Below are positions 37,337 through 44,848 of a DNA stretch of 64,000 nt, piece by piece (position 1 is the stretch's first letter; each line of letters begins with the position of its first letter). A program made the translations under genes and the position numbers. This DNA comes from Chitinophaga pinensis (lineage in GTDB: Bacteria; Bacteroidota; Bacteroidia; NS11-12g; UBA955). The notes under the pieces were generated by a model, which was not told where the DNA came from, ran no database searches, and worked only from the letters and a program-made list of their open reading frames with translations. The DNA lies in assembly GCA_945877575.1 (NCBI GenBank), contig CAMDUE010000007.1:62001-126000 (forward strand). Reading direction: 5' to 3'.

Positions 37337-37346
37337 TTATTCTGTT
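37326..37346. terminator. Hairpin across the stops of two convergent genes
   Basis: AACAGAAT, loop TGATT, ATTCTGTT: a perfect 8-bp stem centred on the permease TGA and the adjacent minus-strand TAA. It could terminate both transcripts, though there is no T-tract. Confidence 0.45.
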
Positions 37347-40084
37347 ACTTGAATTCTTGCAGAGAAGTTAGATTTGTTTGAGTTAGACTTTATTATGTAA
37401 AGTCCAGTTTTCAATGTGCTTGGCACTTGGTATTGGTTGTTTTGCAATTCACTATATCCTACAGCTCTTCCTGTTAAATCAAACCATGTTAAGTTTGAAG
37501 GAAGTTGTTGAATTCCGTTCATGGTGATGTTAGATTTAGCATCAACTGGATTAGGGTATACAGAAACATTGTCAATATTGATGATCTGGTTGTTTAGATG
37601 ATCAGCGATGACTTGAATAATTGCGGTGTCTTTACAGCCAGAAGCATTGGAAGTAACAATCATTTGAACGTCATAAGTTCCGTCAGTAGCGTATTGGTGA
37701 GTACCAGTTGCGCCAGATGAAGTATTTCCATCACCCCATACCCATTGAATACTGCTATTTGGGTTGGTAACAGCGGGTGTACAAGTAACTTTGCGGGGAT
37801 AGTCTAGTGTCCATTGGAAACCAGATGTTGGACGGAATTTAGTGTTAATGGTGACAGATTTTCTCTCTGAAGTACAGCCTTTGAATTCGGTTTGGTAATA
37901 AACGGTTTTATCTGAGAAAAGAATGCCAAGGTTTAAATTGCTGCTAGAAGAGAAGCTATTATTAGTGGTCTCATCTTCATACCAATAGATATTTCCATAG
38001 GTTATAGGTGCTGATATAAGGCCTAGTGACTTGTTACATACATCAGGAGCACTTATTGTGCTTGGTGTTGGTGGTATGTTAACGGTTACTAATACAGAGT
38101 CAAAAGAATTGTTTTCGCATTTACCGTCAATGGTTTTGAAGAATACATAGCTATTGCTATTTTGTAAATTCTTTACATTCACAAATTTTGAACTAGCGAA
38201 AATAGATCCAGATTTAGAGGTATACCAATTTACATTACCCCACTGAGTTGAAGCAGCAACATCTGCTGAATCGCCGATACAGATTTCATCACCAATTTTC
38301 GCAAAAGTAGGCGGTGCTTGGTTTGCATTCACATTGATAGTAATTCTACCAGATCCGCAGTTACCGTCGTAAGATTCAACATAATATGTTTGTGTTCCGC
38401 GCTTGTTGATGGATGCAGTAAATTGAGTTCCTGTTGCGAGTGGACTTCCCCCGTTAGGGACATCAAACCAACGAATGGTAGCACTAGAATTATTTGATGC
38501 AGATAGTTTTAAATTTAAATTTCCAGAGGTGTAGCAAATGCTCGTATCTGAAATGGTAGTTGGAGCGTCAGGGGCGAAATCATTTCCAACTAATGCAGAA
38601 ACGGCAACACGGCCCATTTTATAGGTGCAACCCCCATTTTGGGCTTCTACATAGAAAGTGGTGTCGTTATTTAAAACAACAGTGGTGTATGTGCTTCCGG
38701 TGTGAAATTTGGTTCCACCTGTTGAAGTTCTGTACCAATCAAGGTTTCCGTTGTCAGATTTTGCTTCTAGGTTTGCTGAGGCACCGCTGCATAATGAGTC
38801 ATTTTTTGTTGTAAGTGTAGTGGGGTATGCCTTAGCCACAACTGGAACTAAAAAGTCTCTAGATTTACAGTCGCCATTGACGCCATAAACATAGAATGAA
38901 TCAGAAGTTAATACTTTTGAAATGGTATAGTTGTTAGTGATTTGGAAAGGAGTTTTATCTAATCTCTCGTTAAACCATTGGTGTTCAACATCAGTTGCGG
39001 GAGTCATTGAAATTCTCAAACTATCACCAATGCAGGCATTGTATCCTTTAGCAAAAGAAGGTGTATTGGGTTTGAAACGAACAATTTTTGTGGTGGTATC
39101 ATAACAGAAAGAACTTGAGTAAGTTGCAACCATAGAACGCAATTCAACAGTTACATTTTTCTTGGTAGAAGGTCTGAATTTGCCGTTGATTGAATTCAAT
39201 TGGAAATTGGTTTTGTCGAAAACCCAATTGTGGCAATAGGCATCAAATCCAGCGTAATCATAGTACATATATTGATTGTAGAAAACAGAACCGCTGACAT
39301 TCTTTTTGTAGGAATTGGTCATTCGTAGGGTATCAACGTTTGCGTAACAATCTTGATTATGGGTAAAATCAGTACCAAATTTATACTTCACAAAAGGATA
39401 TAATTGGATATGACAATCGAAGGTAACACCGCCAACATTTAATGTTAGTCCTCTGTACCACTGAGCCTGAAGTTTCGCGCAATTGATGTTTCTTCCTTCG
39501 CCGTCGCCATTTGCCCAAGAGTTGGTTACTAGTCCGGGTCTGCTGAATTGGCTACTATCACATTCAACAGTTAGAATGTAATTTTTAGAGGTTTTTACAG
39601 GAGTAGAGAATACTACATTTCGTGCGATACGAGTCAATAACAAATTCCCCTGAACTGTATCAATTCTTACGAGCTCACTAGCTAAAGGTGAACCTGTGGG
39701 TAAAGAATCACCGCCTGCTTCATAAACACTGCATTTGATATAGGTAGAAGTTACTTTTCTACCTGTATCGTAAGGCAAATATGCGTATAATCTAAAGCCA
39801 GAAATGGTTATTTCTTGTGGTGCATCAAAGAATTGTCCGAATGCAAGAGTATTGGATACTAACAATGAGCTGTAACTAGTTGAAGCAATATTTACGAAGT
39901 AACTGGTATCAGAACCACATTGGGTGGGGTTGGTCGCGCTCCTTTTTGCAAAAGAGGATGGTTTGCCCGTTATTCGATTCATTTTCACTGTACCCGATAT
40001 TTTTCCGGGACCTTCAATCAGCTGAGCGAAAGAGGTTTGTGAAAACAAGAAAATGGCAACAAAAAAATGTAGTGCTTTTTTCAT
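37337..40084 (-). CDS. Large secreted protein with CHU-type Ig modules, PKD domain and type IX sorting domain
   Basis: 915 aa. Signal peptide ends near SFAQ (residue 20). A ~330-residue N-terminal region of unknown fold is followed by several Ig-like CHU_C-type modules with repeating DSLC/WY..., GG and FYVE... patterns, a PKD-like domain with WVWGDGNTSSG near residue 780, and a C-terminal type A sorting domain beginning VSVYPNPV and ending GLYIIKSN... RIQVTE. This is the layout of Por/T9SS-secreted, cell-surface-attached proteins. Likely adhesin-like; ligand unknown. No T9SS machinery gene is in this window. Confidence 0.82.
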   Translation of the reverse strand: MKKALHFFVAIFLFSQTSFAQLIEGPGKISGTVKMNRITGKPSSFAKRSATNPTQCGSDTSYFVNIASTSYSSLLVSNTLAFGQFFDAPQEITISGFRLYAYLPYDTGRKVTSTYIKCSVYEAGGDSLPTGSPLASELVRIDTVQGNLLLTRIARNVVFSTPVKTSKNYILTVECDSSQFSRPGLVTNSWANGDGEGRNINCAKLQAQWYRGLTLNVGGVTFDCHIQLYPFVKYKFGTDFTHNQDCYANVDTLRMTNSYKKNVSGSVFYNQYMYYDYAGFDAYCHNWVFDKTNFQLNSINGKFRPSTKKNVTVELRSMVATYSSSFCYDTTTKIVRFKPNTPSFAKGYNACIGDSLRISMTPATDVEHQWFNERLDKTPFQITNNYTISKVLTSDSFYVYGVNGDCKSRDFLVPVVAKAYPTTLTTKNDSLCSGASANLEAKSDNGNLDWYRTSTGGTKFHTGSTYTTVVLNNDTTFYVEAQNGGCTYKMGRVAVSALVGNDFAPDAPTTISDTSICYTSGNLNLKLSASNNSSATIRWFDVPNGGSPLATGTQFTASINKRGTQTYYVESYDGNCGSGRITINVNANQAPPTFAKIGDEICIGDSADVAASTQWGNVNWYTSKSGSIFASSKFVNVKNLQNSNSYVFFKTIDGKCENNSFDSVLVTVNIPPTPSTISAPDVCNKSLGLISAPITYGNIYWYEDETTNNSFSSSSNLNLGILFSDKTVYYQTEFKGCTSERKSVTINTKFRPTSGFQWTLDYPRKVTCTPAVTNPNSSIQWVWGDGNTSSGATGTHQYATDGTYDVQMIVTSNASGCKDTAIIQVIADHLNNQIINIDNVSVYPNPVDAKSNITMNGIQQLPSNLTWFDLTGRAVGYSELQNNQYQVPSTLKTGLYIIKSNSNKSNFSARIQVTE

Positions 40085-40225: not shown

Positions 40226-41041
40226 ATGAGTTCAAATCAATTATTGAAGGGTAAAAGAGGAATCATATTTGGTGCTTTGAATGAAGCATCTATTGCATGG
40301 AAAGTGGCAGAATTGTGTCATGCTGAAGGTGCACAAATTGTGCTAACCAATGCACCTGTTGCAGCTAAAGTGGGACAAACTGGTCAATTGGCTGAAAAAT
40401 TAGGGGCCACTCTTATATACGCTGATGTTACCAAAATGGATGATATGGAGAATTTGATTTCTCAAAGCATGGAAGTTTTGGGTGGAAAATTGGATTTTGT
40501 TCTTCATTCTGTGGGTATGAGTTTAAATGTGCGTAAGAAGAACGCTTACACCGACTCAAACTATGATTATATGCATACAACTATGGATATTTCGGCTATG
40601 TCGTTCCATAGATTGATGCAGACTTTATGGAAACAAGATGCCATGAACGAGTGGGGCAGTATTTTGGCTCTTTCTTATATTGCAGCTCAGAGAATTTTCC
40701 CTGATTACGGTGAAATGGCAGATGCTAAAGCTCTGTTAGAGAGTTTTTCTCGTAGTTTTGGATATCACTTCGGAAAAGCAAAAAAAGTTCGTGTAAATAC
40801 CATATCTCAAAGTCCTACTAAAACCACTGCTGGTAGCGGTGTTGGCGGATTTGATTCCTTCTTTAACTATGCTGATAAAATGAGCCCATTGGGCAACGCT
40901 GATTCTGAATCGTGCGCTCAATATTGCGTTTCTATGTTCAGTGATTATACTCGAATGGTTACCATGCAGAATCTTTTCCACGACGGAGGATTCAGCTTCA
41001 CAGGTATCTCGACTGATTTTATGGAAACGTTCAAAGACTAG
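40226..41041 (+). CDS. fabI: Enoyl-[acyl-carrier-protein] reductase
   Basis: Final step of fatty-acid elongation, NADH-dependent SDR. 271 aa. GIIFGALNEASIAWKVAE is the FabI cofactor motif, VLHSVGM follows, and the catalytic Tyr-x6-Lys is YGEMADAK near residues 163-170. The stop codon TAG directly abuts a heptanucleotide repeat block. Confidence 0.93.
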   Translation: MSSNQLLKGKRGIIFGALNEASIAWKVAELCHAEGAQIVLTNAPVAAKVGQTGQLAEKLGATLIYADVTKMDDMENLISQSMEVLGGKLDFVLHSVGMSLNVRKKNAYTDSNYDYMHTTMDISAMSFHRLMQTLWKQDAMNEWGSILALSYIAAQRIFPDYGEMADAKALLESFSRSFGYHFGKAKKVRVNTISQSPTKTTAGSGVGGFDSFFNYADKMSPLGNADSESCAQYCVSMFSDYTRMVTMQNLFHDGGFSFTGISTDFMETFKD

Positions 41042-41052
41042 TCTATGGTACT

Positions 41053-41150
41053 GGGTACCGGGTACCGGGTTTCGGGTACCGGGTTTCGGGAGTAGGGTGA
41101 CGGGTGTCGGGTTTCGGGTACCGGGTGACGGGTGACGGGTGACGGGGATT
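41053..41150. repeat. Heptanucleotide repeat block 1 (GGGTACC/GGGTGAC type)
   Basis: Fourteen contiguous 7-bp units, each starting GGG on the plus strand: GGGTACC, GGGTTTC, GGGAGTA, GGGTGAC, GGGTGTC and GGGGATT forms. The register is unbroken. Units GGATTAGG follow to about 41163, reaching the pdxH stop. Twelve bases between fabI stop and the block contain part of the GGTCTAT unit seen in block 2. Confidence 0.9.
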
Positions 41151-41156
41151 AGGGGA

Positions 41157-41786
41157 TTAGGGGGCGAGGCGCTCCTTTGACCAGAGCTGATTTGCTAGTT
41201 TGTATCGCACTCTGTCGTGAACGCGACTGGGTCTGCCTTGCCAAAATTCAAATTGAACGGGTTTGATGTTGATTCCGCCCCAATGATTTGGACGGATTAT
41301 TTTTTCTGGAGTTTTGAGGAGTTCTTGAGTTTCAAGTTCAAGATTGCGATCAGCATCAATGGCTGAGCTTTGTAGGCTGATGATGGCGCCTGCTTGCGAT
41401 TCAATGGGGCGAGAATAAAAGTATTTATCTGATTCTTCGGGGGATATTTTTTCGGCGATGCCGAGGATTCTGACCTGTCTTTCTAGTTCGGGCCAGAAAA
41501 AGTTCATGGCAATCTGGGGGTTTGTAGCAATTTGTTGTCCTTTTTGGCTGTTGTAGTTGGTAAAAAACACCAGTCCTTTTTCATTAAAATCTTTGAGTAG
41601 AACAACTCTTGAATCGGGGAAGCCATCGTTTGAAGTTGATAACGTAAAAGCGGTAGGTTCATGAACCTGCGACTCAATGGCTTCCGACATCCATTTTTTA
41701 AATGCCGAAAAGGGTTCGTTGGGCATCTCATGGAGAGAAATGCTGCCTTTCATGTAGATTTTGCGGATATCGGCGAGGTTAGTCAT
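41157..41786 (-). CDS. pdxH: Pyridoxamine 5'-phosphate oxidase
   Basis: FMN-dependent oxidation of pyridoxine/pyridoxamine phosphate to PLP. 209 aa, standard length. SRVVLLKDFNEKGLVFFTNYNSQKG holds FMN-binding residues (shown only in part), FFWPELERQVRI and the C-terminal FWQGRPSRVHDR/WSKERLAP motifs are intact. The gene is bracketed by repeat blocks at both ends, so its promoter must lie in or beyond block 4 or in read-through from ffh. Confidence 0.93.
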   Translation of the reverse strand: MTNLADIRKIYMKGSISLHEMPNEPFSAFKKWMSEAIESQVHEPTAFTLSTSNDGFPDSRVVLLKDFNEKGLVFFTNYNSQKGQQIATNPQIAMNFFWPELERQVRILGIAEKISPEESDKYFYSRPIESQAGAIISLQSSAIDADRNLELETQELLKTPEKIIRPNHWGGINIKPVQFEFWQGRPSRVHDRVRYKLANQLWSKERLAP

Positions 41787-41787
41787 T

Positions 41788-41829
41788 GGTCTATGGTCTA
41801 TGGTCTATGGTCTGTGGTCTATGGTCTAT
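41788..41829. repeat. Heptanucleotide repeat block 2 (GGTCTAT)
   Basis: Six 7-bp units GGTCTAT (one GGTCTGT), beginning two bases after the pdxH start codon on the plus strand. Only GG runs, so less prone to quadruplex formation than its neighbours. Confidence 0.9.
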
Positions 41830-41833
41830 GGTC

Positions 41834-41910
41834 GAGGGACGAGGGACGAGGGACGAGGGGCGAGGGACGAGGGACGAGGGACGAGGGGCGAGGGGCGAGG
41901 GGCGAGGGGC
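41834..41910. repeat. Heptanucleotide repeat block 3 (GAGGGAC/GAGGGGC)
   Basis: Eleven 7-bp units, six GAGGGAC and five GAGGGGC, G-rich on the plus strand. It starts four bases after block 2. Confidence 0.9.
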
Positions 41911-41919
41911 GGCATGAAA

Positions 41920-42066
41920 CCCGATACCCGATACCCGATACCCGATACCCGATACCCGATACCCGATACCCGATACCCGATACCTGGCTCCCGATACCTG
42001 ATACCTGGTTCCCGGTACCTGGCTCCTGGTACCCGGTACCCGGAACCCGGTATTTGGTTCCCGGTA
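41920..42066. repeat. Heptanucleotide repeat block 4 (CCCGATA/CCCGGTA)
   Basis: Twenty-one 7-bp units in unbroken register: nine perfect CCCGATA, then degenerate CCTGGCT, CCTGGTA, CCCGGTA and similar. G-rich on the minus strand. CCCGGTA is the reverse complement, in rotated phase, of GGGTACC in block 1, so blocks 1 and 4 are inverted relative to each other around pdxH. Ends at the ffh stop codon. Confidence 0.92.
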
Positions 42067-42071
42067 CCTAA

Positions 42072-43382
42072 TTAAAACAATCCAGGTATTTTGCCTTTGC
42101 TGTTGTTCATCATTTTCATCATTTGGCGCATTTGATTGAACTGAGTGAGGAGTTTGTTGAGGTCTTGTATGTTGCGACCACTGCCGCGAACGATGCGTTG
42201 TTTGCGGGAGTTGTTGAGGATTTCGGGTTTGGCGCGTTCTTCGGGGGTCATTGATTGGATGATGGCTTCAATGCCTTTGAATGCGTTTTCATCTACATCG
42301 AGGTCTTTGATTTTGCTTCCAACGCCGGGCAGCATGCCGAGAAGATCTTTCATGTTACCCATCTTTTTGATTTGTTGGAGTTGAGCTAGGAAGTCTTCGA
42401 AATCGAATTTGTTTTTGGCGATTTTCTTGGCAAGTCTTTGAGCTTCTTCTTCGTCAATGGTTGCTTGTGCACGTTCTACCAAGCTGACAACGTCACCCAT
42501 ACCCAAGATTCTTCCGGCCATACGATCAGGGTGGAAAATATCAAGGGCGTCCATCTTTTCGCCGTTGGAGGCGAATTTGATGGGTTTGTTGACAATGGAT
42601 TTGATTGAAAGTGCAGCACCACCGCGCGCGTCACCGTCTAATTTCGTTAGAACAACGCCGGTGAAATCAAGAACATCGTTGAATGCTTTTGCAGTGTTGA
42701 CGGCATCTTGTCCGGTCATCGCATCTACTACAAAGAGGGTCTCAACGGGGTTGAGGGCTTTCTTGAGGGATGCAATTTCTTTCATCATGGCCTCGTCAAT
42801 GGCGATACGACCTGCGGTGTCGACAATCAGCACATTGCAGTTTTTGACTTTGGCGTGCTTGATGGCGTTTTCGGCTATTTGAACTGGGTTATTATTGTCG
42901 TTTTCGGTGTAGTATTCGGCTTCGGTTTGTTCGGCCAGGACGCGCAATTGTTCGCGTGCTGCTGGACGATAAACGTCGCCAGCTACCAGCATGGGAGTGC
43001 GACCTTGACTTTTAAGGTGTTTGGCTAGTTTACCGGTAAAAGTTGTTTTACCAGCACCTTGAAGTCCTGCCACCAAAATGATGGCTGGAGAACCTTTTAG
43101 GTGGAGTTCGGCAGTGCTTCCCCCGAGAAGTTGAACCAGTTCATCGTGAACAATCTTGGTAAGCATTTGTCCCGGTGAAACCGATTGTAATACTTCGGCG
43201 CCGGTGGCCTTTTCCATGATATCATCGGTAAAGGTTTTAGCTACTTTGAAGTTTACGTCGGCAGAGATGAGGGCTCTACGGATTTCCTTTACGGTATCGG
43301 TAACGTTAGATTCGGTGATGCGGCTTTGTCCTTTAAGGGTTTTGAAGGCCTTTTCGAGTTTGCTTTGCAGACTGTCAAACAT
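42072..43382 (-). CDS. ffh: Signal recognition particle protein Ffh
   Basis: GTPase that delivers nascent membrane proteins to FtsY. 436 aa. N domain, then G domain with GLQGAGKTTFTGKLAKHLK, VDTAGR and TKLDGDARGG, and a methionine-rich M domain ending MRQMMKMMNNSKGKIPGLF. ATG 43382 is 4 nt from a TAnnTTTG box. Confidence 0.96.
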   Translation of the reverse strand: MFDSLQSKLEKAFKTLKGQSRITESNVTDTVKEIRRALISADVNFKVAKTFTDDIMEKATGAEVLQSVSPGQMLTKIVHDELVQLLGGSTAELHLKGSPAIILVAGLQGAGKTTFTGKLAKHLKSQGRTPMLVAGDVYRPAAREQLRVLAEQTEAEYYTENDNNNPVQIAENAIKHAKVKNCNVLIVDTAGRIAIDEAMMKEIASLKKALNPVETLFVVDAMTGQDAVNTAKAFNDVLDFTGVVLTKLDGDARGGAALSIKSIVNKPIKFASNGEKMDALDIFHPDRMAGRILGMGDVVSLVERAQATIDEEEAQRLAKKIAKNKFDFEDFLAQLQQIKKMGNMKDLLGMLPGVGSKIKDLDVDENAFKGIEAIIQSMTPEERAKPEILNNSRKQRIVRGSGRNIQDLNKLLTQFNQMRQMMKMMNNSKGKIPGLF

Positions 43383-44807: not shown

Positions 44808-44820
44808 AAACGAATAATAG

Positions 44821-44848
44821 TCCCCCGAAAAAACGTCCCCCGAAAAAA
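44821..44848. repeat. Two 13-bp TCCCCCGAAAAAA copies before glmS
   Basis: TCCCCCGAAAAAA at 44821-44833 and 44836-44848, a 15-bp period, in the metK-glmS gap. The same 13-mer also occurs at 28373 and 54053. Confidence 0.85.

Follow-up and report, generated by a model that had tools for sequence, protein, structure and literature searches.

Tandem arrays of heptamers have for decades been catalogued across many bacteria, yet there is no agreement on where they come from or what they do. In heterocystous cyanobacteria, the STRR elements (short tandemly repeated repetitive sequences, a term used in several cyanobacterial papers) are degenerate heptamer tandem arrays located between genes. In Xanthomonas and Nostoc, G-rich heptamers of the forms GGGNATC and GGGGA(C/T)T make up single arrays that lie nearer to the ORF at the 5' end of their G strand, "irrespective of the ORFs orientation," and that differ in length and sequence from one related species to another where they occupy a shared gap (Rehm et al. 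2015; PMC4692102). Slippage of heptamer arrays in 7-nt steps has also been proposed in the literature (PMC4692102). A further kind, the TAACTGA direct repeats of Beggiatoaceae, cyanobacteria, and some Bacteroidetes (MacGregor 2015; PMC4679880), has a single unit, which in Beggiatoaceae usually stands in the "forward" orientation directly before start codons. As a class, G-rich heptamer repeats are already known; what is new here is a head-to-head polarity of every two-armed array counted, anchoring at stop codons, the inheritance of places with replaced units, the near absence of terminators from convergent gaps with arrays, and 285 bp of heptads inside an operon. On balance, we consider it probable that the arrays reported here, a lineage-specific, genome-wide period-7 family, grow by slippage in steps of 7 nt and by copying between loci.

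The arrays share with the STRR elements the form of degenerate heptamer arrays between genes, and the cyanobacterial arrays examined follow the same head-to-head rule as described below. Like the Xanthomonas and Nostoc repeats, they are G-rich, have a period of 7 with exact 7-nt units, are dispersed throughout the genome with an excess in non-coding DNA, and lie within 50 bp of ORFs, nearer to the ORF on the 5' side of the G strand. Unlike those repeats, they comprise dozens of units per genome, mostly without GGG, they form long two-armed head-to-head arrays, their units are fully replaced between sister species, and the convergent gaps that bear them lack terminators. Their likeness to the TAACTGA repeats lies in the intergenic arrays of heptamers, which in Bacteroidetes are interspersed with other heptamers, and in the indels of 7 nt that separate related strains (PMC4679880), whereas the arrays here are stop-anchored, occur in both orientations, and draw on many units.

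The site that led to the family lies in the window, the whole 64,000-nt stretch of Bacteroidota DNA that was analyzed. There, pdxH (41157..41786, minus strand; PF01243 and PF10590), an ORF for pyridoxamine 5'-phosphate oxidase, stands between the ORFs of a fabI-like enoyl-ACP reductase (40226..41041, plus strand; PF13561, E 2.7e-61) and the signal-recognition-particle GTPase Ffh (42072..43382, minus strand; PF00448, E 8.9e-73). The convergent gap between fabI and pdxH is entirely occupied by the left array (41047..41163, plus strand), which was delimited by direct unit reading, Tandem Repeats Finder, and a period scan; it is a single G-rich arm that begins at the fabI stop codon and consists of 13 GGGNNNN units followed by two 8-bp GGGGATTA units reaching the pdxH stop codon, which itself lies inside the array. 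The right array, delimited by the period scan and unit reading, directly abuts the pdxH start codon. Its left arm (41787..41909), G-rich on the plus strand, passes from 6 GGTCTAT-type units to 11 GAGGGRC units, and at a 10-base junction, CGGCATGAAA (41910..41919, by unit reading), this G arm meets a C arm head to head. The right arm (41920..42071), G-rich on the minus strand, contains 21 CCCGATA/CCCGGTA-type units and adjoins the ffh stop codon; read on the minus strand, it has 9 GGGTATC-type units on the inside and GGTACC-type units on the ffh side. Both pdxH and ffh are on the minus strand, and the right gap lies within an ffh-pdxH operon. The period scan called arrays at 41047-41146, 41779-41911, and 41916-42050, and Tandem Repeats Finder scores for the window arrays reached 142.

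The earlier note on this DNA had described four blocks of strictly 7-bp units around pdxH. The blocks are real and the counts on the right (6, 11, and 21) stand; on the left, the 14 units it gave are 13 plus the two of 8 bp, which contradict a strict 7-bp register. Its G3N4 pattern holds for blocks 1, 3, and 4 (numbered from the left) and fails for block 2, which has no GGG; a G3N1-7 x4 pattern is likewise present in three blocks only, and three of the four may well fold as quadruplexes. The reverse-complement relation that it proposed between blocks 1 and 4 holds for the GGTACC-type units and not for the remaining ones. The idea that one inverted pair brackets pdxH does not survive, as each gap owns its array and the one in the right gap is head-to-head by itself; the position of pdxH "between inverted arrays" is a side effect of the general rule for two-armed arrays. 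The composition of the arrays also leaves long open frames on the plus strand, of 136 aa (41661-42071) and 104 aa (41761-42075), because stop-less heptads stay open, and automatic annotation may call such array-crossing frames as genes.

The gene order, with fabI and pdxH converging and ffh behind pdxH, is conserved throughout the genus and in certain other genera. In relatives, the ffh-pdxH gap, measured from aligned end to aligned start, is 21-25 bp (seven genomes), 42 bp, or 65 bp; in the window genome, 285 bp of heptads take up the space, reaching the start codon of pdxH at one end and the stop codon of ffh at the other, so that by this comparison the gap has grown from 21-25 bp to 285 bp. 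In five relatives (G006, G009, G010, G012, and G013), the fabI/pdxH gap carries a small ORF whose product starts with MGKGD and looks like ribosomal protein THX, followed in four of the five by a hairpin with a T-run. The THX-like protein was not found anywhere in the window genome or in its sister species (G011), and the T-run hairpin is absent from the fabI/pdxH gap of the window genome. The ORF is also missing in G003 and G005, neither of which has an array in this gap, so there need be no connection between the disappearance of the ORF and the growth of the array.

It is clear that the window arrays are not a product of chance, and they are confirmed as one site of a genome-wide period-7 family. 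The part of the window genome that was read amounts to about a third; in the period scan, 864 kb yielded 61 period-7 arrays compared to 0-2 at periods other than multiples of 7, 464 kb yielded 27 compared to 0-2, and the sister species 48 compared to 0-3. Genome-wide, GGGNNNC x4 occurs 308 times and its reversed control 5 times. The suggestion in the earlier note that the heptamers are like those known from Xanthomonas and Nostoc (PMC4692102) is borne out, and the genome-wide search that it proposed found heptads all over the genome. Most arrays are 50-430 bp in length, or about 7 to 60 units, and the preference for four units that marks the Xanthomonas and Nostoc repeats was not seen. Both genomes are drafts, in which arrays that exceed the read length may be collapsed. 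An assembly artefact is unlikely, since arrays are present at the same sites in two assemblies. At least 69 dimer-supported units occur in the window genome; they mostly differ from GGGNATC and do not conform to a GGGNATC / GGGGA(C/T)T consensus with at least three Gs per unit. Only 37% of the units carry GGG, and just 9% do in the sister species, which nevertheless keeps the period, the places, and the polarity. Quadruplex folding, which the earlier note had raised as a possibility, cannot be their conserved feature, because 63% of units here and 91% in the sister species are without GGG. Other genera of the order have dispersed heptads of their own (L184-L195), such as GGTAAGT in g2, GGTTATT and GGTTAAT in g18 and g21, and GGTTGGT in g13.

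The arms of these arrays follow a single polarity. Among two-armed arrays, a G-rich arm followed by a C-rich arm, an order that reads alike on either strand, was found 22 times in the window genome and 15 times in the sister species, with no instance of the opposite order in either, and short loci picked by their repeat pattern added 6 G-to-C arrays from three cyanobacterial genomes and 4 from GC-rich viral contigs, again with none reversed. The total is 47 to 0, and on each side the G-rich strand runs away from the adjacent ORF. Single-arm arrays obey the same rule in 16 of 18 cases in the window genome and in 11 of 15 cases in the sister species: the G strand has its 5' end near an ORF, whatever the direction of that ORF. 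In several other genera of the order, inspected by eye at one locus each, most of the single arrays, which have different units, follow the rule as well. Gene direction alone is not the cause, because 10 of the 21 two-armed arrays of the window genome that could be placed in gaps are in tandem or divergent gaps. Terminator stems were also considered as a seed for the polarity and were rejected, as the 5' arms of stems in array-free gaps are G-rich and C-rich at similar frequency (17 vs 18 in the window genome and 17 vs 25 in the sister species). The viral arrays form a separate observation: three contigs of 65-67% GC, classed as viral and from an unrelated high-GC source (L238, L239, and L241) have GGTGATC arrays in convergent gaps, head-to-head and touching stop codons. 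Carriage by a mobile phage was discarded as an origin, given that GGGTACC x3 is absent from the viral contigs, and that GGTGATC x3, found in 7 stretches of viral contigs of 61-67% GC, obeys the same polarity rule with no link to the window genome.

With respect to genes, arrays occupy 20 of 52 convergent gaps, 13 of 223 tandem gaps, and 6 of 107 divergent gaps as delimited by a simple hexamer-based gene caller, and the difference between convergent gaps and all others (19 of 330) is significant (p 1e-9). Relative to stop codons, the 5' end of the G strand has a median position of -1 bp (n=79 arms, 69 of them within 15 bp), and near start codons the arms (n=27) lie at a median distance of 40 bp. 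Gene starts, like terminators, are here predictions by simple scripts. Convergent gaps with arrays retain a median of 14 bp of non-array DNA, compared to a median length of 78 bp for array-free gaps. In both species together, a simple hairpin-plus-T-run script found terminator-like hairpins in 2 of 37 convergent gaps with arrays and 24 of 53 without (p 3e-5), and in two array-free relatives such hairpins are present in 10 of 11 convergent gaps. The arrays thus stand where terminators are missing, which makes a role in ending transcription, or the dispensability of such a role, directly testable. One possible, though on present evidence unlikely, reading is that they are selected bidirectional terminators or insulators, in which a G-rich followed by a C-rich stretch stops RNA polymerase arriving from either side; RNA structure, quadruplexes, R-loops, or Rho would be the route, and this we put forward just as tentatively. 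Both the concentration in convergent gaps and the near absence of hairpins at gaps of a type that array-free relatives supply with them are in line with this reading. It is harder to reconcile with the rarity of GGG units in the sister species and with arrays that lie in divergent gaps or within the ffh-pdxH operon, where an end to transcription would do harm. Nor do the arrays offer a hairpin terminator, because their arms are not complementary beyond chance (mean rank of own-arm against foreign-arm duplex energy, 0.58) and the window array, with no surplus of folding, is less stable than its shuffles (z 1.68). The same two values exclude a selected hairpin, whether REP/BIME-like or a terminator, as well as a hairpin or foldback origin.

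Among 14 genomes of the genus, only the window genome and the sister species are array-rich; one other (G002) has five GGTNNNN matches, and the rest have none. The two species are linked by 235 reciprocal best hits with a median protein identity of 90%. For all 6 syntenic arrays, the orthologous gap in the sister species is also occupied by an array, although the comparison covers these 6 arrays only and two draft genomes, one of them 74% complete. For tandem gaps, the sister species has an array opposite 3 of 3 array gaps and 0 of 125 array-free gaps, and for convergent gaps, opposite 3 of 3 and 2 of 27. The flanking DNA aligns by eye and the units do not: GGTACC, GGGTTTC, and GGTAGTT in the window genome stand against GGTGATC, GGCTGAC, and GGTCTTT in the sister species, and none of the 6 orthologous pairs has a heptad in common. 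Within species, 51% and 50% of array pairs share at least one heptad, compared to 7% between species. Mixed 30-mers common to several loci number 50 in the window genome, against a mean of 3.5 in unit-shuffled arrays, and 22 in the sister species, where the excess is marginal (mean 7.2, maximum 21 in shuffles). The order of units from ORF edge to center is consistent across loci in both species (arm-flip test, p 0.0005 in each). The pattern is one of concerted evolution, with places that are inherited and units that are replaced genome-wide. That the arrays are ordinary neutral microsatellites, each growing alone by slippage with neither exchange between loci nor function, seems improbable to us. 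Array lengths do differ between the sister species at the same site, and the heptamer excess of many bacteria has been tied to polymerase slippage in the literature (PMC4692102), both of which would suit such an origin; the sharing of units within rather than between species, the head-to-head polarity of 47 of 47 two-armed arrays, and the common unit order would not. A few arrays of the sister species (L151, C3:55083-56139; L152, C1:8457-8626) have window-genome-like units, GTACCTA, GGTAGAT, and GGACTAT, unlike the rest of that genome, and may represent older units, exchange, or a misbinned contig.

The explanation that we favor, slippage growth combined with copying between loci, would work as follows. 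Arrays would grow in 7-nt slippage steps, and units would spread among loci via short-homology copying, by gene conversion or single-strand annealing; the sharing of units within a species could also reflect selection for particular units by a DNA- or RNA-binding protein. Growth would erode non-coding DNA until selection on the ORFs halts it, on one side at the stop codon and on the other short of the promoter, and in convergent gaps it would have removed the intrinsic terminators, with the implication that the arrays either replace terminators or occupy sites where termination is unneeded. Slippage alone predicts no head-to-head polarity, and the combination of slippage and copying leaves the polarity unexplained. 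Together with the inheritance of places whose units are fully replaced between sister species, the polarity constrains the maker of the arrays, which is fixed at 7 nt, blind to sequence, able to read strand polarity, and active genome-wide.

Telomere-like end growth would explain the polarity. A break in a gap between genes would leave two 3' ends, whose G-rich strands would be extended as heptads are copied onto them, perhaps out of other arrays in the manner of recombination-based (ALT) telomere maintenance. Head-to-head joining of the two ends would follow. Such growth alone explains a polarity independent of gene direction, the same outer-to-inner unit types in both arms, and the vanished flanking non-coding DNA together with genome-wide unit sharing. 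The register of the arms often changes at the junction, as this origin would have it, with a best shift of 0 in only 9 of 25 arrays; those nine are nonetheless more than the 3.6 expected. No direct sign of such breaks was seen. Between the sister species, 0 of 6 array gaps are broken compared to 8 of 187 array-free gaps, and period-7 purity is slightly higher at the outer than at the inner end of the arms, a comparison biased by array calling, which trims the outer end. We regard this origin as doubtful, to the same degree as neutral microsatellites. The arrays were also considered as rearrangement breakpoints and rejected as such, since all 6 array gaps keep their gene neighbors in the sister species. 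In form, they resemble the head-to-head telomere fusions and interstitial telomeric repeats of eukaryotes, where a G-rich 5'-to-3' arm of short units meets a C-rich arm and a species-specific unit is found at all loci. The likeness is one of resemblance only, as the genome here is a circular-type bacterial one with no telomere, many units, and no telomerase-like enzyme found. A more general process, indifferent to sequence, in which 3' G-rich ends in the gaps between genes gain 7-nt units by addition or copying and are joined head-to-head, with exchange of units among all such sites, is, in our estimation, slightly less probable still; if true, it would be a bacterial, chromosome-internal counterpart of recombination-based telomere upkeep in Bacteroidota, cyanobacteria, and others.

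The weakest candidate as the maker of the repeats is a telomerase-like reverse transcriptase with an RNA template, such as DRT10. It would account for species-specific units, as DRT10 synthesizes tandem-repeat DNA on an RNA template that changes fast (PMC12632851), and is rejected as highly improbable in that a search of the 99.9% complete window genome for the reverse-transcriptase domain PF00078 gave no match, the sole reverse transcriptase of the sister species looks like a type VI retron, and repeat lengths vary between DRT10 systems (PMC12632851) while the arrays here are always of period 7.

That retron-like reverse transcriptase is encoded beside a contig end (C11:182-1060 of L196; PADLOC RT_VI, E 1e-77). 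Also in the sister species, C2:44690-44847 contains seven CCCTAAA units, equivalent to the plant-type telomere heptamer TTTAGGG, which is probably a coincidence. Elsewhere in the window, the short gap between metK and the next gene carries, at 44820-44848, a near-perfect 15-bp tandem pair, GTCCCCCGAAAAAAC, and no heptad array. Upstream of fabI, and in keeping with a Bacteroidota host, to which the relatives also point, the minus strand encodes a 915-aa protein (37337-40084) with Ig-like, PKD, and Por_Secre_tail domains, marking it as cargo of type IX secretion.
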